Part shown: one piece after another, positions 10,402-18,145 of the stretch
Position numbering within the stretch: position 1 is the stretch's first letter
Layout of the letters: each line of letters begins with the position of its first letter
Origin: Planctomycetales bacterium 71-10
Lineage (GTDB): Bacteria > Planctomycetota > Planctomycetia > Isosphaerales > Isosphaeraceae
DNA: 64,000 nucleotides
Direction of reading: 5' to 3'
Assembly (NCBI GenBank): GCA_001898385.1
Contig: MKTT01000075.1
Location: 1-64,000 of the forward strand
Program-made: the position numbers and the translations under genes
Notes under the pieces: model-generated
The model's database searches: none
What the model was told of the DNA's origin: nothing
The model's input: only the letters and a program-made list of their open reading frames with translations

Positions 10402-11655
10402 ATGACCCACCAACCCCGCCGAGCGCGGGGCCATCCTTATTCAGGGCGGCGTATGATCGCGCGACGGACGGTCTGGATCATGGCGGTCGGCAGCGGGCTG
10501 TCGGTCGCCAACCTCTACTATAGCCAGCCCCTGCTGGAACGCATGGGGGTGGAGTTCGGGGCGTCGGCCTCGAAGATGGGGGTCGTGGCGACGGCCACGC
10601 AGGTCGGGTATGCGACGGGGATGCTCCTGCTCGCCCCGCTGGGCGACCTGGTGGAGCGCCGCAAGCTGATCGTGGCGACCCTCGCCGCGACGGCCCTGGC
10701 GCTGGCGGCGGTGGCGGTCTCGCCGGGCTTCGCGTGGCTGGCGGTCGCCAGCCTGGTCCTGGGGGCGGCGACGGTCACGCCCCAGGTCATCATCCCGTTC
10801 GCCGCGGCGATCGCCGAGCCCCACGAGCGCGGGAAGGTTGTGGGGACGGTGATGAGCGGGCTGCTGATCGGCATCCTGCTGGCGCGAACGGCCAGCGGGT
10901 TCCTCGGCTCCCGCCTGGGATGGAGGGCGGTCTTCTGGCTGGCGTCCGGGCTGATGGTCGCCCTGGCGGCCGTGATGGCCCGGGCCCTGCCCCGCTCGTC
11001 GCCGACGCTCGCCGGGACGTCCTACGGGGCGCTGATGCGTTCGATCGTCGGCCTGGTCCGCGACCTGCCGGCCTTGCGGGCGTCGGCCCTGTTCGGGGGG
11101 CTGGCGTTCGCGTCGTTCAGCGTCTTCTGGACGGTCCTGGCGTTCCACCTGGCGACGCCGCCGTTCCATTACGGCAGCGACGTCGTCGGCCTGTTCGGCC
11201 TGGTGGGCGCCGCCGGGGCCGCCGCCGCGCCGCTGGTGGGGACGTTCGCCGACCGCCGAGGGCCGAGGCTGTCGATCGGCCTGGGGCTGGCGACGATGCT
11301 GGCGTCCTACGGGGTGCTGGCCGCGTTCGGCCGGACGCTGACGGGGCTGGTCGCGGGCGTGCTGCTCCTGGACCTGGGCGTCCAGTGCAACCACATCTCG
11401 AACCAGACCCGGATCTACGGCCTGTTGCCCGAGGCCCGCAGCCGGCTGAACACGGTGTACATGGTCGCCTTCTTCCTGGGCGGCTCGCTCGGCTCGGCGG
11501 CGGGCGCGGCGGCCTGGCCGCGATACGGATGGCCGGGGGCGTGCGCGGTCGGCGCGGGGTTCGTGCTGGCGGCGCTCGGCGTGTTCGCCGCCACCCGCCG
11601 CGAGCGGCCGACCTTCGTGCGCGAGCCGGTCACGACGGCCGAGGCCCCGGCCTGA
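10402..11655 (+). CDS. MFS transporter, probable drug/metabolite exporter
   Basis: The 417-residue protein has the 12-helix major facilitator pattern. The signature GDLVERRKLIV follows helix 2, VTPQVIIPFAAAIAEPHERGKVVGTVMSG covers helices 4-5, and a second-half GTFADRRGPRLSIG loop is present. The start at ATG 10402 would give a charged 17-residue leader; ATG 10453 (MIARRTVWIM) is a good alternative. Its closest style is the YtbD/AraJ-like DHA1 exporters. The gene ends 26 bases inside the 3' end of the leftward permease gene. Confidence 0.88.
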   Translation: MTHQPRRARGHPYSGRRMIARRTVWIMAVGSGLSVANLYYSQPLLERMGVEFGASASKMGVVATATQVGYATGMLLLAPLGDLVERRKLIVATLAATALALAAVAVSPGFAWLAVASLVLGAATVTPQVIIPFAAAIAEPHERGKVVGTVMSGLLIGILLARTASGFLGSRLGWRAVFWLASGLMVALAAVMARALPRSSPTLAGTSYGALMRSIVGLVRDLPALRASALFGGLAFASFSVFWTVLAFHLATPPFHYGSDVVGLFGLVGAAGAAAAPLVGTFADRRGPRLSIGLGLATMLASYGVLAAFGRTLTGLVAGVLLLDLGVQCNHISNQTRIYGLLPEARSRLNTVYMVAFFLGGSLGSAAGAAAWPRYGWPGACAVGAGFVLAALGVFAATRRERPTFVREPVTTAEAPA

Positions 11656-12640
11656 GCCGGCCGGCCAGCTTCCGGGCCGACGCCCCCCAATGCCCGCGGT
11701 GGACGTCGGCCATGACGGCCAGCACGATCACCGCGCCGCTGATGAGCCGCTTGGACGGCTCGCTGGCGCCGACGTGGTCCAGGCCGGTCTGGAGCACGGC
11801 GATGATGAGGACGCCGAGGAAGCTCCGCAGCACGGAGCCCCGGCCGCCCATCAGGCTCGTCCCGCCGATCACCACGGCCGCGATCGCCCCCAGCTCCAGC
11901 CCGACGCCGCCGTTGGGGTCCGCCGACGACACCCGCGAGACCTGGAACACCGCCGCGATCGCCGCGCACAGGCCGGAGAGGACGAACGTCAGCAGCTTCG
12001 TCGGCCTCGGGTCCACGCCCGAGAGCCGCACCGCCTCCTCGTTCGTGCCGATGGCGATCATGTACCGGCCCAGCACCGTCCGCGTCAGCAGGACGTGCCC
12101 CGCCGCCACCAGCAAGAGCGCGATCAGGAAGCTCGCCGAGGCGCCCAGCCCCGCGATCGGGTGCGACAGCCACTCGACCCGCGCGCCGATGTACTTCGTC
12201 TCCGACCGCGTCAGCAGGTACGTCGCCCCCCGGGCCGACTCCAGCATCCCCAGCGTCACGATGAACGACGGGATCGACCAGTGCACGGTGATGAATCCGT
12301 TCACGAGCCCGCACGCCGAGCCGGCCGCCAGGCAGAGGAGCAGCGCGACCGGGAACGGCAGGCTCCAGTCGACCATCGCGATCCCCAGCACGGCCCCGCA
12401 CAGGGCCATCACCGAGCCGACCGACAGGTCGATGCCGCCGATCACCAGCACCAGCGTCATCCCGACCGCCACGGCGGTCAGGTCGGCCGACTGGTTGACG
12501 ATCGTCTTGACCGTCTGCGGCGACCAGAAATGGTCGCTGAACCGGCCGAACAGCGCGGACAACGCCGCCAGCACGACGAGCATGCCCAGCACGTCGCCCA
12601 CGCCCCGCCAGTCGAACCCCGGCCGCTTCGCCTCGCCCAT
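11630..12640 (-). CDS. Sugar ABC transporter permease, RbsC-like
   Basis: The 336-residue integral membrane protein matches the RbsC/XylH (BPD_transp_2) family. It contains AVGMTLVLVIGGIDLSVGSVMAL, FIVTLGMLESARGATYLLT, the EAA-like AIGTNEEAVRLSGVD loop, and a final GLDHVG...PSKRLISGAVIVLAV. ATG 12640 is chosen because it lies 2 bases after the ATPase stop and starts MGEAKRPGFDW; an upstream in-frame ATG at 12670 lies inside the ATPase gene. It should form the membrane channel for the ATPase and binding protein of this locus. Substrate is probably ribose or another nucleoside-derived sugar, inferred from the nucleoside hydrolase neighbour. Confidence 0.9.
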   Translation of the reverse strand: MGEAKRPGFDWRGVGDVLGMLVVLAALSALFGRFSDHFWSPQTVKTIVNQSADLTAVAVGMTLVLVIGGIDLSVGSVMALCGAVLGIAMVDWSLPFPVALLLCLAAGSACGLVNGFITVHWSIPSFIVTLGMLESARGATYLLTRSETKYIGARVEWLSHPIAGLGASASFLIALLLVAAGHVLLTRTVLGRYMIAIGTNEEAVRLSGVDPRPTKLLTFVLSGLCAAIAAVFQVSRVSSADPNGGVGLELGAIAAVVIGGTSLMGGRGSVLRSFLGVLIIAVLQTGLDHVGASEPSKRLISGAVIVLAVMADVHRGHWGASARKLAGRLRPGPRPS

Positions 12641-12641
12641 G

Positions 12642-14159
12642 TCAGCCGCCCGCCCCCGCTCGGTTCGCATACCCCCGGAACGCCGCCGCCAGGAGCTTCT
12701 CCTCGGTCCACTCGCCGCGCGCGAAGGTCTCGACCAGCCGGCCGGCCGAGACGACCGCGATCCGGTCGCAGATGAGCATCAGCTCCTCGACCTCGCTGGA
12801 GACCACGACCACGCCGGCCCCCTTCGCCGCGATCTCGTCGATCAGCCCGTACACGGCGAACTTGGCCGCCACGTCCACGCCCCGCGTGGGCTCGTCGAAC
12901 AGCATGACCCGAGGCCCGCGCAGGAGCCATCGGCCGACGAGCACCTTCTGCTGGTTGCCGCCGCTGAGCTGCCCCGCCGGCTGCTCCGTCGAGGCGTACG
13001 CGAGCTGCACCCGATCGCCCATCGCGACGACCTCCGCCCGCTCCTCCCTCGGCTTCAGGAAGCCGAGCGGCCCGGTGAACGGGCCGAGCTGGCCGAGCGT
13101 GGCGTTGAGCCGGATCGACCGCGGCAGGAGCAGGCCCTCGGCCTTGCGGTCCTCCGGGACCATCCCCAGCCCGGCGCGGACCGCCTCGCGGGGCGAGCGG
13201 AACCGCCGCGGAGGCCCGCCGGCGACCGAGACCTCGCCCGACTCGGCCGCGTCGGCCCCGAAGATCGCGCGCAGAAGTTCCGTCCGGCCCGAGCCGACCA
13301 GGCCCGAGACGCCGACGACCTCGCCGGCGCGGACCTCGAAGGAGACGTCGCGGACGCGGTCGCCGCGCGAGAGGTTGCGGACGCTCAGGACGACCTCGCC
13401 CGGCGCGCGGGCGTGGCGGACCTCGTCGCGCGAGGGGACGGAGCCGACCATCAGCCGCACGGCCTCGTCCAGGTCCAGCTCCGACGCCGGCCGCACGGCC
13501 ACCAGCTTGCCGTCGCGCAGGACGCCGATCCGGTCGGCGATCCGACGGACCTCGTCCAGCCGGTGGCTGACGTAGACGATCGCCGCCCCTTCGGCCTTCA
13601 GCCGGGCGACCTCGGCGAACAGGCGGTCGACCTGGGGGGACGTCAGCGCGGCGGTGGGCTCGTCCAGGATCAGCACCCGGCACGGCCGCGCCAGGCTGCG
13701 GGCGATCTCCACGAGCTGCCGCTCGCCGACGCCCAGCCGCGACGTCGGCGTCTCCGGGTCGACCGACCCCAGCCCGACCCGCGCCAGCGCCTCCGCGGCG
13801 CGTCGGCGAAGCTCGGCGAAGCGGACCAGCCCCAGGCGCGTCGGCAGGCGGTCGAGGAACAGGTTCTCAGCCACGGTGAGCGTCGGCAGGACGGTCAGCT
13901 CCTGCTGGACGATCTGCACGCCCAGCGCCTCGGCCGCGTGCTTCGAGGTCGGCCGGTACGCCTCGCCCCCGAGCGTCATCGCGCCGGCGTCCGGCGGCCC
14001 GAGCCCGGCCAGGATCCGCGCGAGCGTGCTCTTGCCCGCCCCGTTCGCCCCCATCAGCGCCAGGACCTCGCCCGGATGCAGGTCCAGGTCCACGGCGCGC
14101 AGGACGGGGGCGGCGTAGCTCTTGCTCAGGCCGCGGATGGACAGCAAAGGTTCGGTCAC
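12642..14159 (-). CDS. Sugar ABC transporter ATP-binding protein, RbsA-like
   Basis: The 505-residue protein has two fused ABC domains as in RbsA/XylG. The first has Walker A GANGAGKSTL, signature LGVGERQLVEIARS and Walker B VLILDEPTAALT. The second has a degenerate Walker A (GLVGSGRTELLRA), signature LSGGNQQKVLVGRW and MLFDEPTRGVDV. Degeneracy in the second site is normal for this family. The start is GTG 14159. The permease follows after 2 bases. Upstream, where the binding-protein gene would be expected, sits the AAA/DUF4276 pair instead; the binding protein resumes at 16146. Confidence 0.92.
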   Translation of the reverse strand: MTEPLLSIRGLSKSYAAPVLRAVDLDLHPGEVLALMGANGAGKSTLARILAGLGPPDAGAMTLGGEAYRPTSKHAAEALGVQIVQQELTVLPTLTVAENLFLDRLPTRLGLVRFAELRRRAAEALARVGLGSVDPETPTSRLGVGERQLVEIARSLARPCRVLILDEPTAALTSPQVDRLFAEVARLKAEGAAIVYVSHRLDEVRRIADRIGVLRDGKLVAVRPASELDLDEAVRLMVGSVPSRDEVRHARAPGEVVLSVRNLSRGDRVRDVSFEVRAGEVVGVSGLVGSGRTELLRAIFGADAAESGEVSVAGGPPRRFRSPREAVRAGLGMVPEDRKAEGLLLPRSIRLNATLGQLGPFTGPLGFLKPREERAEVVAMGDRVQLAYASTEQPAGQLSGGNQQKVLVGRWLLRGPRVMLFDEPTRGVDVAAKFAVYGLIDEIAAKGAGVVVVSSEVEELMLICDRIAVVSAGRLVETFARGEWTEEKLLAAAFRGYANRAGAGG

Positions 14160-14220
14160 GACGGGATCGTTTCCAATTCGATTGCCGGGGTCGTCGATGT
14201 CTGAACGCCGACGTGAAGCG

Positions 14221-14833
14221 TCAAAGCGCCTGGCCGCCGCTCAACTCCAGGATCGTGTTCAGGAACGCCTTGAGTTCCGGACAGGCGGCGACGGCCACGC
14301 CGAGATCCTGCCCCTTGAGGATTCGACCGGCGTCGCGAGTCTTGATATACCCATCCCTCTTTGCCGATGCGAAAGACCTCCGCGAGCCGATATGCCGGCG
14401 AATTGCCGTGATTCACCCGCTCCGGATTCGATCCCGGGGAGCGTCGATTGCAACCCGTGATTTCCTTGATCCTGTCCCAGTACGGCAAGAGCCACGCTTC
14501 GAAGTCATGGAGTGCAACGTGGGGATGGAACCTCGGTTCCTCACCGACCCATTCCCGCGTCTTCGACTTCGCGACCTGGGCCGTCGGAAACACATACGGC
14601 GTCGTTCCCGTATAAACGTCCGTCAGGGCGACCACGGCGTCCGCCTGTCGGCTCCCGGCCCGAAGCAGGTTCTCTACGATTCGCTTCAACTTCTTCTCTG
14701 TCGGGATCCGTCCGTCGTAGGAGGTGAAATCCAACCGCGGCATCCGGCCCGCCAGCCGCTTCTTGAGGTAGTCGACGAGGTGAGGCTTGAAGGCGGTCTC
14801 GGTCTTGCCTTCGACGAGCACGGCGATCCTCAC
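14221..14833 (-). pseudogene. DUF4276 (Toprim-like) protein, frameshifted
   Basis: The frame opens ATG 14833 with MRIAVLVEGKTETAF, the VEGxTE motif of DUF4276/RloB-like Toprim proteins (Glu8). Other acidic sites follow: ALTDVY (Asp72) and HDFEAWLLP (residues 109-115). Up to GKEG (residue 160, near 14353) it reads well. Beyond that the original frame turns into arginine-rich nonsense and runs to 14156. Shifting by one base at 14350-14353 restores a natural ending, GYIKTRDAGRILKGQDLGVA... to a TGA at 14221-14223, giving about 203 residues. So there is an apparent one-base insertion: a real mutation, a sequencing error or recoding. The start overlaps the AAA ATPase stop by 4 bases. Confidence 0.8.
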
Positions 14834-15999
14834 GGCTTCGCTCCCATGCGGCCCATCCGCCAGACTTCGTCCGGGGTGTAGTCCTCAAGCCACGACGTCA
14901 GGTCGAGTTCGTCGGCCCATTCGAACTGGGCCTCCCCATCCTCGCCGACGTTGACGGTGAGCACTTCGCTCGGCTCCAGGAACCGTACCAGACGGTCGGC
15001 ATGGGTGGCGACGATGAGCTGCGTGCGTCGAGACGCTTCGCGTAGCAGGTCCGCCAGCAGGGAGAGCAGTTCGGGATGGAGGCTGACTTCCGGCTCGTCG
15101 ATCATCGTTACGGCCGGCAATTCGGGGCTATGAAGCAAAGTCGCGAGCCAAAGGAAGCGGAGAGTCCCCTCCGACAACTGGTGGGCGGCGAAGGGCGTCC
15201 GGCTCGTCTTCTCTTTCCAGGTCAAGGAAAGAGTCCCCGTCGCCACCGGCGGGAAATTGAGCCGTTCAAATCCGGGGAATCCCGCCTCCAATGTGGCCTC
15301 GATGGCGTCGAATCGATCTCGGTCCGTCTCTCGGAGGGTGTAGAGGCACGAGACGAGATCCTCGCCGTCGTGCCCCGGCAGCTTCGCGTCCTTCATCTGC
15401 TGCGGGAGCCTTACAGGAGCCCTGCTTCCCACGTCCAGCACGTGATAGTGCGTCGAGGACGCGAGGCGCTTTCGGAAGTCCTCCGGCTCCCGATACATCT
15501 TGGGAACCTGGGACAGCGCCGTCTCCTTCTCGTCGTAGTCCCAGGTCGGTTTCACCAACCCTCGCTTCTCCGGAGTCGGATCGAAATAGCGGACCCTCCC
15601 CAAGCGGGATTCAAGGTGCTTGAACGGATGGGACTTCCCCTGATCCTGCTCCAGGGTCTCTTCGATGATCTGATATCCAACGCCTATCGGTTCCAGATCG
15701 AGGTCATAGACCAGGGGTTTCCGGTCCGCGATAGCCATGGCCAATGTGAAGCGCATGGACCGCTTTCGGTCTTCCTTCGTCGCGACCAGGTTCGTCAGGT
15801 TGGCGTCGATCCCGCTCATCTCGCTCAACGACGACGCGAGCCTCCCCGACGCCGAGTCCGCAAGCAGCGAAAAGACGTCCAGCAATGAGGTCTTGCCGCA
15901 ACCATTGGCCCCGATGACGACGTTCAGGCGTTTCAGAGCGATGTCGCTGTCGTTGAGCCGACGGAAGCCCTGAACCTTAAGGCTCTCGAAATAACTCAA
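14830..15999 (-). CDS. AAA family ATPase (OLD/RecF-like), putative defence protein
   Basis: The 389-residue protein starts at TTG 15999, with GGAG 7 bases upstream. It reads MSYFESLKVQGFRRL, the usual opening of RecF/OLD-type ATPases. Walker A is GANGCGKTS (residues 30-38). The Q-loop/signature region is HQLSEGTLRFLWLATLL, Walker B is VTMIDEPEVSLHPEL and the switch His is in LIVATHADRLVR. The downstream partner is a DUF4276 Toprim-like protein joined by a 4-base overlap. Together they are a split version of the ATPase plus Toprim arrangement of OLD and PARIS-like nucleases. An anti-phage role is inferred from architecture only. Base composition is less GC-rich than the ABC genes on both sides. 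Confidence 0.88.
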   Translation of the reverse strand: MSYFESLKVQGFRRLNDSDIALKRLNVVIGANGCGKTSLLDVFSLLADSASGRLASSLSEMSGIDANLTNLVATKEDRKRSMRFTLAMAIADRKPLVYDLDLEPIGVGYQIIEETLEQDQGKSHPFKHLESRLGRVRYFDPTPEKRGLVKPTWDYDEKETALSQVPKMYREPEDFRKRLASSTHYHVLDVGSRAPVRLPQQMKDAKLPGHDGEDLVSCLYTLRETDRDRFDAIEATLEAGFPGFERLNFPPVATGTLSLTWKEKTSRTPFAAHQLSEGTLRFLWLATLLHSPELPAVTMIDEPEVSLHPELLSLLADLLREASRRTQLIVATHADRLVRFLEPSEVLTVNVGEDGEAQFEWADELDLTSWLEDYTPDEVWRMGRMGAKP

Positions 16000-16145
16000 C
16001 GGATGGCTCCAAGCCGGTCGCGCTTGCCACTGGTCCCGTCACGTACGATACAAGACGACGCAGCCGACGGCCCATCTATTTCCCATCGAGGAGCCGTCGA
16101 CCTCGGTCGAGAGTCCACCGGAAACACCGCGATCGCGCCCGCCCT

Positions 16146-17117
16146 TCACTTCTTCACCACCAGGTCGACCGGCGTGGTGCGGTCGGCGGGGCTCTCCTTC
16201 TTGGCGATCAGGTCGAGGGCGTACTGGAGGCCGAAGACGGCGAGCTGGTCGGCGTGCTGGTCGACGGTGGCCAGGATGGTCCCCTCCTGGATCGCGTCGC
16301 GCACGGCGCCGATGCCGTCGTAGCCGACGATGAGCACCTGGCCCGAGCGCCCGGCCGCCTTCACGGCCGCGACGGCCCCCAGCGCCATGCTGTCGTTGCA
16401 GCACATCAGGGCCTTGATCTCCGGATGCTCGCTCAGCATGGCCGAGGCCACGCGGTTGGCCTGGGCGATCTCCCACTGGGCGCTCTGCGAGTCCACCACC
16501 TTCAGGTCGGCCGCCTTGGCCGATTCCTGGAAGCCCAGCAGCCGCTGCTGGCCGTTGAACGCGGTTTTGAGGCCCTCGACGATCGCCACCGGGTCGCCCG
16601 CCTTGAGCTTGCCGGCCAGGTAGTCCCCCGCCAGCTTCGCCCCGGCGCGGTTGTCGGGGCCGACGAACGGGACCTTGATCCCCTGCTCCGCCAGCACGGC
16701 GTCGTCCAGCTTGTTGTCGATGTTCACCACCGCAATCCCCGCCTCCTGCGCCCGCCGGCACGAGGAGACCAGGGCCTTGGAGTCGGCCGGGGCGATCACG
16801 ATCGCGGCCACCTTCTGGCCGATCATCTCGTCCATCAGCGCGACCTGGCGGGCGATGTCGCGCTCGTCCTTGATGCCGTTGACGATCAGGTCGAAGTCGC
16901 CGGCGTGCTCGGACTGATACTTCTTCGCGCCGTCGGCCATCACCGAGAAGAACTCGTTGGCCAGCGACTTCATCACCAGCGCGATCCGGGGCTTGCCGGG
17001 CGTCGCCGGCGCGGGGACCGCGCCGGGGGCGGCGGCCGGGCCCGCGGCGGGCTCGCCGCCGTTGCAGCCGGCCAGGGCGATCAGCACGAACGCGGCGATC
17101 GGGGTGCGGATCCTCAC
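16146..17117 (-). CDS. Sugar-binding lipoprotein, RbsB-like
   Basis: The 323-residue periplasmic binding protein has lipobox ALAGC (Cys18) and a Pro/Ala linker. It then shows the type I fold of RbsB-like proteins: PRIALVMKSLANEFFSVMADGAKKY, AAIVIAPADSKAL, GIAVVNIDNKLDD, VPFVGPDNRAGAKLAGDYL, AIVEGL, EIKALMCCNDSMALGAVAAV, VLIVGYDGI and ILATVDQHADQLAVFGLQYAL. The start is GTG 17117, overlapping the stop of the nucleoside hydrolase gene (GTGA), so the two are translationally coupled. It should serve the RbsA/RbsC genes further down, from which it is now separated by the ATPase/DUF4276 pair. Confidence 0.9.
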   Translation of the reverse strand: MRIRTPIAAFVLIALAGCNGGEPAAGPAAAPGAVPAPATPGKPRIALVMKSLANEFFSVMADGAKKYQSEHAGDFDLIVNGIKDERDIARQVALMDEMIGQKVAAIVIAPADSKALVSSCRRAQEAGIAVVNIDNKLDDAVLAEQGIKVPFVGPDNRAGAKLAGDYLAGKLKAGDPVAIVEGLKTAFNGQQRLLGFQESAKAADLKVVDSQSAQWEIAQANRVASAMLSEHPEIKALMCCNDSMALGAVAAVKAAGRSGQVLIVGYDGIGAVRDAIQEGTILATVDQHADQLAVFGLQYALDLIAKKESPADRTTPVDLVVKK

Positions 17118-18145
17118 GGCCGGCCCCCTTCCCGGCGGTCCGGCGGCTGGCTGGAGAGCTGGACCAGGGCCTCCACCACGCGGGCCTTGCGGGCCTCGTC
17201 GGGGAGGATCAGGTAGCGGCTGCGGCCGTTCGCGTTCGCGACGTACTTCGTGAAACCGTCCTTCTCGACGGTCACGTCGCCGGGCGAGGAGAGGTCGAAG
17301 TAGCCGCGGTCGGGGTGGATGGCGTAGAGGACGCTGGTGAGGTCCCACGTCGGCCGGTTGTGCGGCGGCGGCATGTAGAGGTAGTACGCCTCGGCCAGCG
17401 GGTGGTGCTTCACATACTTGTAGTCGCGCTCGATGCTCGTCGCCGGGTACGGCACGGCGACGCCGATCTCGAAGCCGCTGAAGACCAGCTCCGTCGGCCA
17501 CTCCGCCACGAGCTTGGCGCAGCTCGGGACGTCCTTGATGACGTTGTATTCGATGAAATGGGCGTTGCCGTCGATGGGCTGGAACGAGCCGGCCATCAGC
17601 GACAGGACCTTGACCTTCGCCTTGACCAACTCCTTGCCCGTCAGCGGGGAGACGTCGTCGGCGGGGGTGTCGAGCAGGCGGGCGAGGTTCGTGGAGAAGC
17701 CCACCTGGACGATCGCGACCGACTTGTCGGGCTGCGACACCAGCGCCTTGCGGAGCACGGCCGTCGCGGTGGGGGCGTCCTTGAGGTCGTGGGGGTAGCG
17801 GGGCTTGCCGTCGTCGGTCGCGTCGACCATCGGCAGGTACTTGCCGTCCTCCTTCGCGCCGCCTTCGACGACGCCGACGGGGACCTCGCCGCGGCCGTAG
17901 AAGGTGTTCACCAGGTCGACGAACGGGGCGGCCTTGGGGTTGTCGACGCTGACGGTGACGGCCAGCAGCTTGCAGTCGCCGCGGGACTCGGCCGCGTGGA
18001 TCACGCCCAGGGCCAGGACGTCGTCGACGTCGCCGCAGATGTCGGTGTCGAAGATGACGCCGAGGGGTTCGGCGGCCCTCGCCGCGGGGATCGCCGGCGC
18101 GAGGAGGAACGCCCCCGCGACCAGGCCCAAGCAGACGCCTCGCAT
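17114..18145 (-). CDS. Exported inosine/uridine-preferring nucleoside hydrolase
   Basis: The 343-residue protein has a signal peptide (MRGVCLGLVAGAFLLAPAIPAARA). The nucleoside hydrolase calcium site VIFDTDICGDVDDVLAL (DxDxxxDxDD) follows at about residues 30-45. VDNPKAAPFVDLVNTFYGRGEVPVGV and a C-terminal PTWDLTSVLYAIHPDRGYF continue the family pattern. It should split nucleosides to base and ribose outside the cytoplasm. It is the first gene of the operon with the sugar-binding lipoprotein, consistent with release and import of ribose. Confidence 0.88.
   Translation of the reverse strand: MRGVCLGLVAGAFLLAPAIPAARAAEPLGVIFDTDICGDVDDVLALGVIHAAESRGDCKLLAVTVSVDNPKAAPFVDLVNTFYGRGEVPVGVVEGGAKEDGKYLPMVDATDDGKPRYPHDLKDAPTATAVLRKALVSQPDKSVAIVQVGFSTNLARLLDTPADDVSPLTGKELVKAKVKVLSLMAGSFQPIDGNAHFIEYNVIKDVPSCAKLVAEWPTELVFSGFEIGVAVPYPATSIERDYKYVKHHPLAEAYYLYMPPPHNRPTWDLTSVLYAIHPDRGYFDLSSPGDVTVEKDGFTKYVANANGRSRYLILPDEARKARVVEALVQLSSQPPDRREGGRP

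Follow-up and report, generated by a model that had tools for sequence, protein, structure and literature searches.

A HEC-01-type ATPase/DUF4276 gene pair, a candidate defence system, inserted between the genes of a planctomycete transport operon

Pairs of OLD-type ABC ATPases and Toprim nucleases are called pervasive in a survey of BREX systems (PMC12839542), and the ATPase/Toprim pairing described here is therefore not new. The closest described system is HEC-01, which is included in PADLOC-DB and stems from a 2024 preprint by Payne et al.; HEC denotes a Hma-embedded candidate, and these systems are reported to have come to notice originally as genes nested within a different operon (PMC12988326, PMC10855318). 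In PARIS, the ATPase AriA is reported to keep the nuclease AriB inactive until triggered (PMC12409363), and AriB is given as a DUF4435-type protein (PMC9122126). Further systems with related components include the two-gene AbiL operon (AbiLi and AbiLii), the class 2 OLD proteins (i.e., GajA of Gabija and free-standing OLD), and the Mad3 and Mad4 proteins of MADS.

We analysed a stretch of 64,000 nucleotides from Planctomycetales bacterium 71-10 (contig MKTT01000075.1, positions 1 to 64,000; here called the window), in which a pair of genes of this type lies within a transport operon (Table 1). The gene order on the minus strand is nucleoside hydrolase, binding protein, AAA_21 ATPase, DUF4276 gene, two-domain ABC ATPase, and permease. 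All four transport genes are whole despite the insert, and the pair lies on the operon strand, with the ATPase gene first and the start of the DUF4276 gene overlapping its stop by 4 bases (14830-14833). A first-pass annotation had proposed both the pair and its transport neighbours on either side from the letters of the sequence, and open reading frames (ORFs) and Pfam matches bore out all of these genes (E value of 1e-19 for DUF4276 in ORF 14156-14833). The extent that it gave, 14221-15999, contains both genes; the insert is wider (14160-16145), and 14221 is the stop codon of a second-frame part of the DUF4276 gene. We assign a probability of roughly 0.6 to the reading that the pair is a horizontally gained, PARIS- or AbiL-like system of the HEC-01 type, composed of an OLD-ATPase sensor and a DUF4276 Toprim nuclease and seated between operon genes. 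According to this reading, the pair would have been gained horizontally in this soil planctomycete and would have landed between the binding-protein stop and the ABC ATPase start, leaving the transport genes whole. The host operon promoter would transcribe it, and the ATPase would sense infection and hold the DUF4276 nuclease in check. Upon infection, the ATPase would free or activate the nuclease, which would cut nucleic acid and thereby stop the infected cell.

Table 1. Features of the transport operon and its insert (window positions)
Feature	Position	Strand	Evidence
Nucleoside hydrolase gene, first of host operon	17114..18145	-	Pfam IU_nuc_hydro, E 3.4e-13
Sugar-binding protein gene (periplasmic protein); upstream insert edge at its stop codon	16146..17243	-	Pfam Peripla_BP_4, E 6.1e-53; junction versus 12 orthologous loci
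Inserted DNA, about 1,985 bp, missing in relatives	14160..16145	.	Empty-site comparison; low GC
Insert leader, 146 bp	16000..16145	-	No genome match elsewhere, no match to a sigma-70-type promoter, unlike leaders of 7 planctomycete relatives
OLD-type ABC ATPase (HEC-01A), 389 aa, TTG start	14830..15999	-	Pfam AAA_21, E 1.7e-38; PADLOC
DUF4276 Toprim-like predicted nuclease (HEC-01B), in-frame residues 1-157	14363..14833	-	Pfam; PADLOC
DUF4276 frame-change stretch	14349..14374	-	Frame comparison with family
DUF4276 C-terminal part, second frame, with conserved lysine	14221..14349	-	81% identical to Aquisphaera insulae
Insert 3' tail, up to ABC ATPase start codon	14160..14220	-	Junction comparison
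Rbs-like ABC transporter ATPase gene, downstream insert edge	12642..14159	-	Pfam ABC_tran, E 1.7e-52, two domains
Rbs-like permease gene	11630..12670	-	Pfam BPD_transp_2, E 3.5e-49

To compare the site across relatives, the ABC transporter ATPase was searched against 59 genomes (the window's own, a draft of 7.73 Mb in 158 contigs, and 58 relatives). Matches at an E value of 1e-100 were present in 54 genomes, and 30 loci, including the window's own, were compared. An orthologous binding-protein gene (59-84% identity) lies directly beside the ABC ATPase gene in 12 of the 29 other loci, with no more than a few tens of bases between the two, and the stretches around these 12 gave no match to the AAA ATPase or to DUF4276. 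They belong to all five same-genus genomes, one genome of the same family (G028), and six of the same class (G039, G040, G042, G046, G049, and G057). The other 17 loci encode different sugar transporters, whose binding proteins reach about 29% identity at best or could not be found, and are uninformative. In one congener (G001; locus L003), a single base separates the binding-protein stop from the ABC ATPase start; the window has 1,985-1,986 bp between this stop and the same start context. The pair's ATPase was missing from all five congeners in a search at an E value of 1e-30. Because the orthologous loci are uninterrupted in congeners and wider relatives, the insertion is the derived condition. 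The pair was inserted exactly between the binding-protein stop and the ABC ATPase start, and it split the Rbs-like operon, as the initial reading had supposed; the related genomes, far from always carrying the pair here, supplied 12 uninterrupted loci. The locus offers a clear-cut comparison of empty and filled sites for a candidate defence pair, and it does so within a housekeeping operon, a place where searches of defence islands would not look.

The insert has a base composition of its own, which had also been remarked on at the outset. Its GC content is 0.619 versus 0.717 for the window; of 1,241 sliding windows of equal size, only 2 have so low a value. At third codon positions, GC is 0.79 for each inserted gene, compared with 0.93-0.98 across the four genes of the operon. 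A search for direct or inverted repeats linking the two insert ends found none, and neither a transposase nor an integrase was found among its contents, two genes being all that ORFs and Pfam recognised; the insert accordingly does not match a transposon or integrative element. The motif GTGA stands at both edges, but as some congeners already carry two copies at this site, we claim no target-site duplication. A scan of the insert for sigma-70-type promoters found none (0.3 expected), and terminator-like sites were near chance (2 found, 1.2 expected). The genome holds a single copy of the 146-bp leader, which resembles the leaders of seven planctomycete relatives no better than shuffled sequence does; the insert tail scored as low against the tails of six relatives, in a comparison made without a shuffle control. 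Between L052 and L070, pairs carried by different bacteria, identity is 89% over a stretch that opens 29 bases ahead of the ATPase start and closes some 45 bases short of the nuclease stop, with no likeness beyond. Because homology does not extend into the flanks, what is shared amounts to about the two genes.

A search with the defence-system models of PADLOC gave HEC-01 as the best match for both proteins, with HEC-01A for the ATPase (E value of 1.9e-71, residues 4-389 of 389) and HEC-01B for the DUF4276 ORF (E value of 6.4e-10, residues 2-152). HEC-01A models were matched by all 28 ATPase rows (the window and 27 relatives), and HEC-01B models by all 21 DUF4276 relatives. Judged by these models and by the shared arrangement (ATPase then DUF4276, adjacent and co-directional), the pair is a member of HEC-01, an already known candidate defence kind. 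It differs from HEC-01 in being embedded in a sugar/nucleoside transport operon rather than a defence operon, and in its broken DUF4276 frame. The term "defence cassette" used in the first-pass annotation has partial support: family resemblance (i.e., the HEC-01 models and an OLD/AriB-like Toprim fold) and the defence neighbours of some relatives speak for it, whereas the window copy looks frame-broken. A defence role of the pair is putative, suggested by its sequence relatives.

The pair was also compared with the other systems. Like PARIS, the pair consists of two separate genes for an OLD-type ABC ATPase and a Toprim nuclease, and AriB is among the structural matches of the DUF4276 protein (Z score of 7.2). 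In score, HEC-01A is far ahead of AriA for the ATPase, six HEC-01A models lying above the AriA match (E value of 1.1e-33). An assignment to AriB was rejected, as no AriB model appeared among the PADLOC matches up to an E value of 10 and Pfam gave DUF4276 alone. With the class 2 OLD proteins, the pair shares the ATPase family and, in its predicted model, the closest annotated Toprim fold (Z score of 10.6); the putative metal ligands and lysine stand in the same order (judged by order and spacing), but those proteins are single polypeptides, in contrast to two genes for 389 aa and about 204 aa here, and their second DxD aspartate is replaced by tyrosine in DUF4276. No UvrD/PcrA/Rep-like helicase gene, a Gabija feature, lies beside the window pair, whose neighbours are transport genes. 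AbiL is also a two-gene operon, and the ATPase matches AbiLi (E value of 6.4e-22); the AbiL matches are weaker than those to HEC-01, the AbiLii model is matched by 2 of 21 DUF4276 relatives, and neither the A. insulae protein nor the window fragment matches it. Membership in MADS was rejected: the ATPase matches Mad3 at an E value of 1.8e-25, with 85.7 bits versus an NCBI cut-off of 420, the Mad4 match has an E value of 0.041, and the neighbouring transport genes include no other MADS genes.

The ATPase gene of the window is whole and constrained (dN/dS of 0.13 versus A. insulae). The Walker A, SEG signature, Walker B, and switch histidine motifs are invariant in all 28 ATPase sequences, and the predicted structure (pLDDT of 89) is fitted by the heads of SMC, Rad50, and PtuA at Z scores of 18-21. 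The window's genome also holds a second, distant relative of this ATPase (G000:C119:48748-49392), with 33% identity over residues 174-388.

The DUF4276 model is that of the protein from A. insulae (pLDDT of 90). Foldseek returned one match below an E value of 0.001, to the C-terminal Toprim region of Burkholderia pseudomallei OLD. In structural comparison, two OLD proteins reached Z scores of 10.6 and 9.2-9.6; AriB of PARIS (7.2 and 6.8) and retron Eco2 (6.2) fall below about 8, where a match may mean merely a common arrangement, unrelated folds (e.g., asparaginase and lumazine synthase) also scoring about 6. Six residues (E8, E12, D72, Y74, E112, and K165) are invariant in all 21 DUF4276 relatives. 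In B. pseudomallei OLD, E400, E404, D455, D457, and E508 are reported to serve two metals and K562 to aid catalysis (PMC6755086). By order and spacing, E8, E12, D72, E112, and K165 match OLD E400, E404, D455, E508, and K562, and the position of D457, the second Toprim aspartate, is taken by Y74 throughout. From this, DUF4276 is predicted to be a metal-dependent nuclease whose second metal-A ligand is altered. In the literature covered, a search under DUF4276 and PF14103 found no paper, although other names may exist; the model provides a structural ground for treating the family as Toprim nucleases, with named residues to test. The top structural match overall was the uncharacterised archaeal protein PH0156 (PDB 2p62; Z score of 10.8, 170 residues aligned), which, to judge from the same model, may also be a Toprim nuclease.

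In the window copy, the DUF4276 start frame follows the family for 157 residues and then becomes unrelated, its ORF running on for 225 residues in total to 14156, and the remaining 42 or so residues lie in a second frame ending at 14221 (intact length about 204 aa). The frame changes between 14374 and 14349, with the conserved-lysine part on the far side. A possible alternative, to which we give less than even odds, is that the pair was gained horizontally and is now a dead remnant, the nuclease having been lost by frameshift and the ATPase being a brief passenger on operon transcription. The frame change would remove the conserved lysine and the last helices, as this alternative expects. Against it, the ATPase is whole and constrained, the family-invariant residues are kept, and the dN/dS of DUF4276 versus A. 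insulae is 0.121 after the break (42 codons) and 0.125 before it. Because the tail is constrained as strongly as the part before the break, the break either arose recently or reflects an assembly error, and a draft in 158 contigs can hold single-base errors. Either the nuclease of the window copy is decaying or the assembly is wrong here, and the copy may not work; intact copies of the pair are present in relatives.

Breaks of the same kind recur among related pairs, which also fits a dead remnant. Of 39 loci analysed by profile searches of six-frame translations, 26 have two whole genes and 5 have two broken ones (L047, L071, L072, L073, and L075); a whole ATPase goes with a broken or nearly absent nuclease in 7 (the window, L049, L059, L061, L069, L076, and L170), while a broken ATPase with a whole nuclease was found in none. 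In one further locus (L068), the contig ends within the nuclease gene, which we did not score as broken. If single-gene breaks fell in proportion to gene length, the chance that seven of seven would hit the nuclease, the shorter gene, would be about 0.0006, a figure that ignores seeding bias and assembly errors in bins; all 39 loci except the window and one planctomycete locus (G089, DUF4276-seeded) were ATPase-seeded, and many are metagenome bins. A DUF4276-seeded search of 395 genomes from one phylum (that of G447) recovered the pair in 5, all with both genes whole; these loci, which include the genome of L060 and one distant relative, neither contradict nor prove the asymmetry. Since the nuclease alone is broken in seven loci and the ATPase alone in none, as would be expected if a toxic nuclease were held back by its ATPase, the decay pattern offers a lead that the ATPase may restrain the nuclease, and the one-sidedness predicts such restraint. 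An AbiLii was reported to be toxic in E. coli, and in that account AbiLi gave no antitoxicity against it, which counts against the restraint reading (PMC3985639).

Our search of genome contigs with the ATPase gave 36 loci, of which 35 (L042-L076) were used; L077, a weak match (29% identity over about 106 residues), was left out of all counts. A DUF4276 gene was detected beside the ATPase in 32 of 36 loci (the 35 and G089). In the phylogenetic tree, the window groups with A. insulae (100/99) in a well-supported group of seven rows made up of the window and six planctomycetes, whereas the Thermodesulfobacteriota rows require four changes, at least three of which are forced by supported branches. 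Presence is patchy: a DUF4276 query (E value of 1e-8) found 2 of 392 genomes of the window's phylum, and the ATPase was matched at an E value of 1e-120 or better in 3 of 59 near relatives, a count to which the window's genome contributes. Plasmids gave no match for the ATPase at an E value of 1e-40 or for the nuclease at 1e-10. Among phages, the ATPase matched solely RCS47 (28% identity; two records of one phage) and the nuclease none, and of 51 candidate stretches from viral contigs, none was confirmed to hold a DUF4276 relative.

This distribution bears on another alternative, that the transport operon co-opted a Rad50/RecF-like module for DNA repair or stress rather than a defence system. 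The SMC/Rad50-like fold of the ATPase and the strand and operon that the insert shares with the transport genes are in keeping with it, and an archaeal OLD-family ATPase is reported to act in the cell cycle (PMC12796447). We consider it unlikely, as the presence of the pair is patchy (including 0 of 5 congeners and the 5 of 395 genomes above), its contexts differ between relatives, and its best models are defence candidates. That the pair is an old operon part lost by the congeners is highly improbable: its position on the operon strand and the wholeness of all genes would suit that idea, but the uninterrupted loci of five congeners, one family-level relative, and six class-level relatives would demand many parallel exact losses, and the composition of the insert is foreign.

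Returning to the horizontally gained HEC-01-type pair, we compared the settings of its relatives. In one (L074), a BREX operon surrounds the pair, with PglX on one side and PglZ-BrxL on the other; other defence genes nearby are BrxL (L060), BrxL-PglZ (L052), and type I restriction-modification genes (L071, L063, and L046), the 10 defence-neighbour proteins having been picked by eye. Many neighbours are housekeeping rather than defence genes, a point against the defence reading. In planctomycete G089, the pair stands between a NuoF-like HydB gene and an Fe-hydrogenase gene, which are adjacent and without the pair in the sister genome G206 (hydrogenase 98% identical). The sister genome here supplies the empty site for a second insertion into an operon. 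A pair between a MoxR and a DUF58 gene (L050) is suggestive only of a further operon insertion, as a tblastn-detectable DUF58 lies beside MoxR in 6 of 19 relatives, the closest of which is 53% identical. At L064 (Hsp70-like gene, pair, AzlC), AzlC stood behind the Hsp70-like gene in the compared stretch of 0 of 19 relatives, and at L045 a dihydroorotase-like gene stood ahead of the glycosyl transferase in 0 of 19. A targeting of operons was rejected: both neighbours lie on the strand of the pair in 14 of 34 loci (37 loci, 34 with both neighbours called by an ad hoc gene caller that is crude in high-GC loci) versus 75 of 142 other gene triples within these loci, and there is accordingly no preference for operon interiors. 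A broader generalisation, which we offer as speculative and doubtful, is that ATPase/DUF4276 pairs are bare two-gene units that move as little beyond their coding sequence, without a transposase, repeats, or a plasmid or phage carrier. They would settle between the cistrons of working operons, be transcribed by the host, and persist and decay nuclease-first because losing the ATPase before the nuclease would be harmful.

Several further pairs were observed. In A. insulae, a pair of the window kind (L042:6001-7781) lies between a ceramidase-like gene and a Gfo/Idh-like oxidoreductase gene. The same slot in the sister genome G571 (L164:6649-8528) holds a different ATPase/DUF4276 pair in the same order and orientation, with the ATPase 23% identical; the slot flanks are 82-86% identical, and a genome with neither pair there was also found (G584). 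In a same-family genome, a ribBA-type gene is followed at 38 bases by a third kind of AAA_21/DUF4276 pair (L171:1480-3308), another case of a pair just downstream of a housekeeping gene. Three Desulfotignum genomes (L060, L062, and L063) carry nearly identical pairs with a common downstream stretch and differing upstream neighbours, namely, BrxL, a small RHH/PIN-like gene pair (identified by eye), and a type I restriction gene with a YgjP-like gene. In the BREX operon mentioned above, the pair is immediately preceded by a second, distinct AAA_21 ATPase gene and a gene for an unassigned 267-aa protein (L074:4034-6014), so that two ATPase-led pairs may be nested in this operon.
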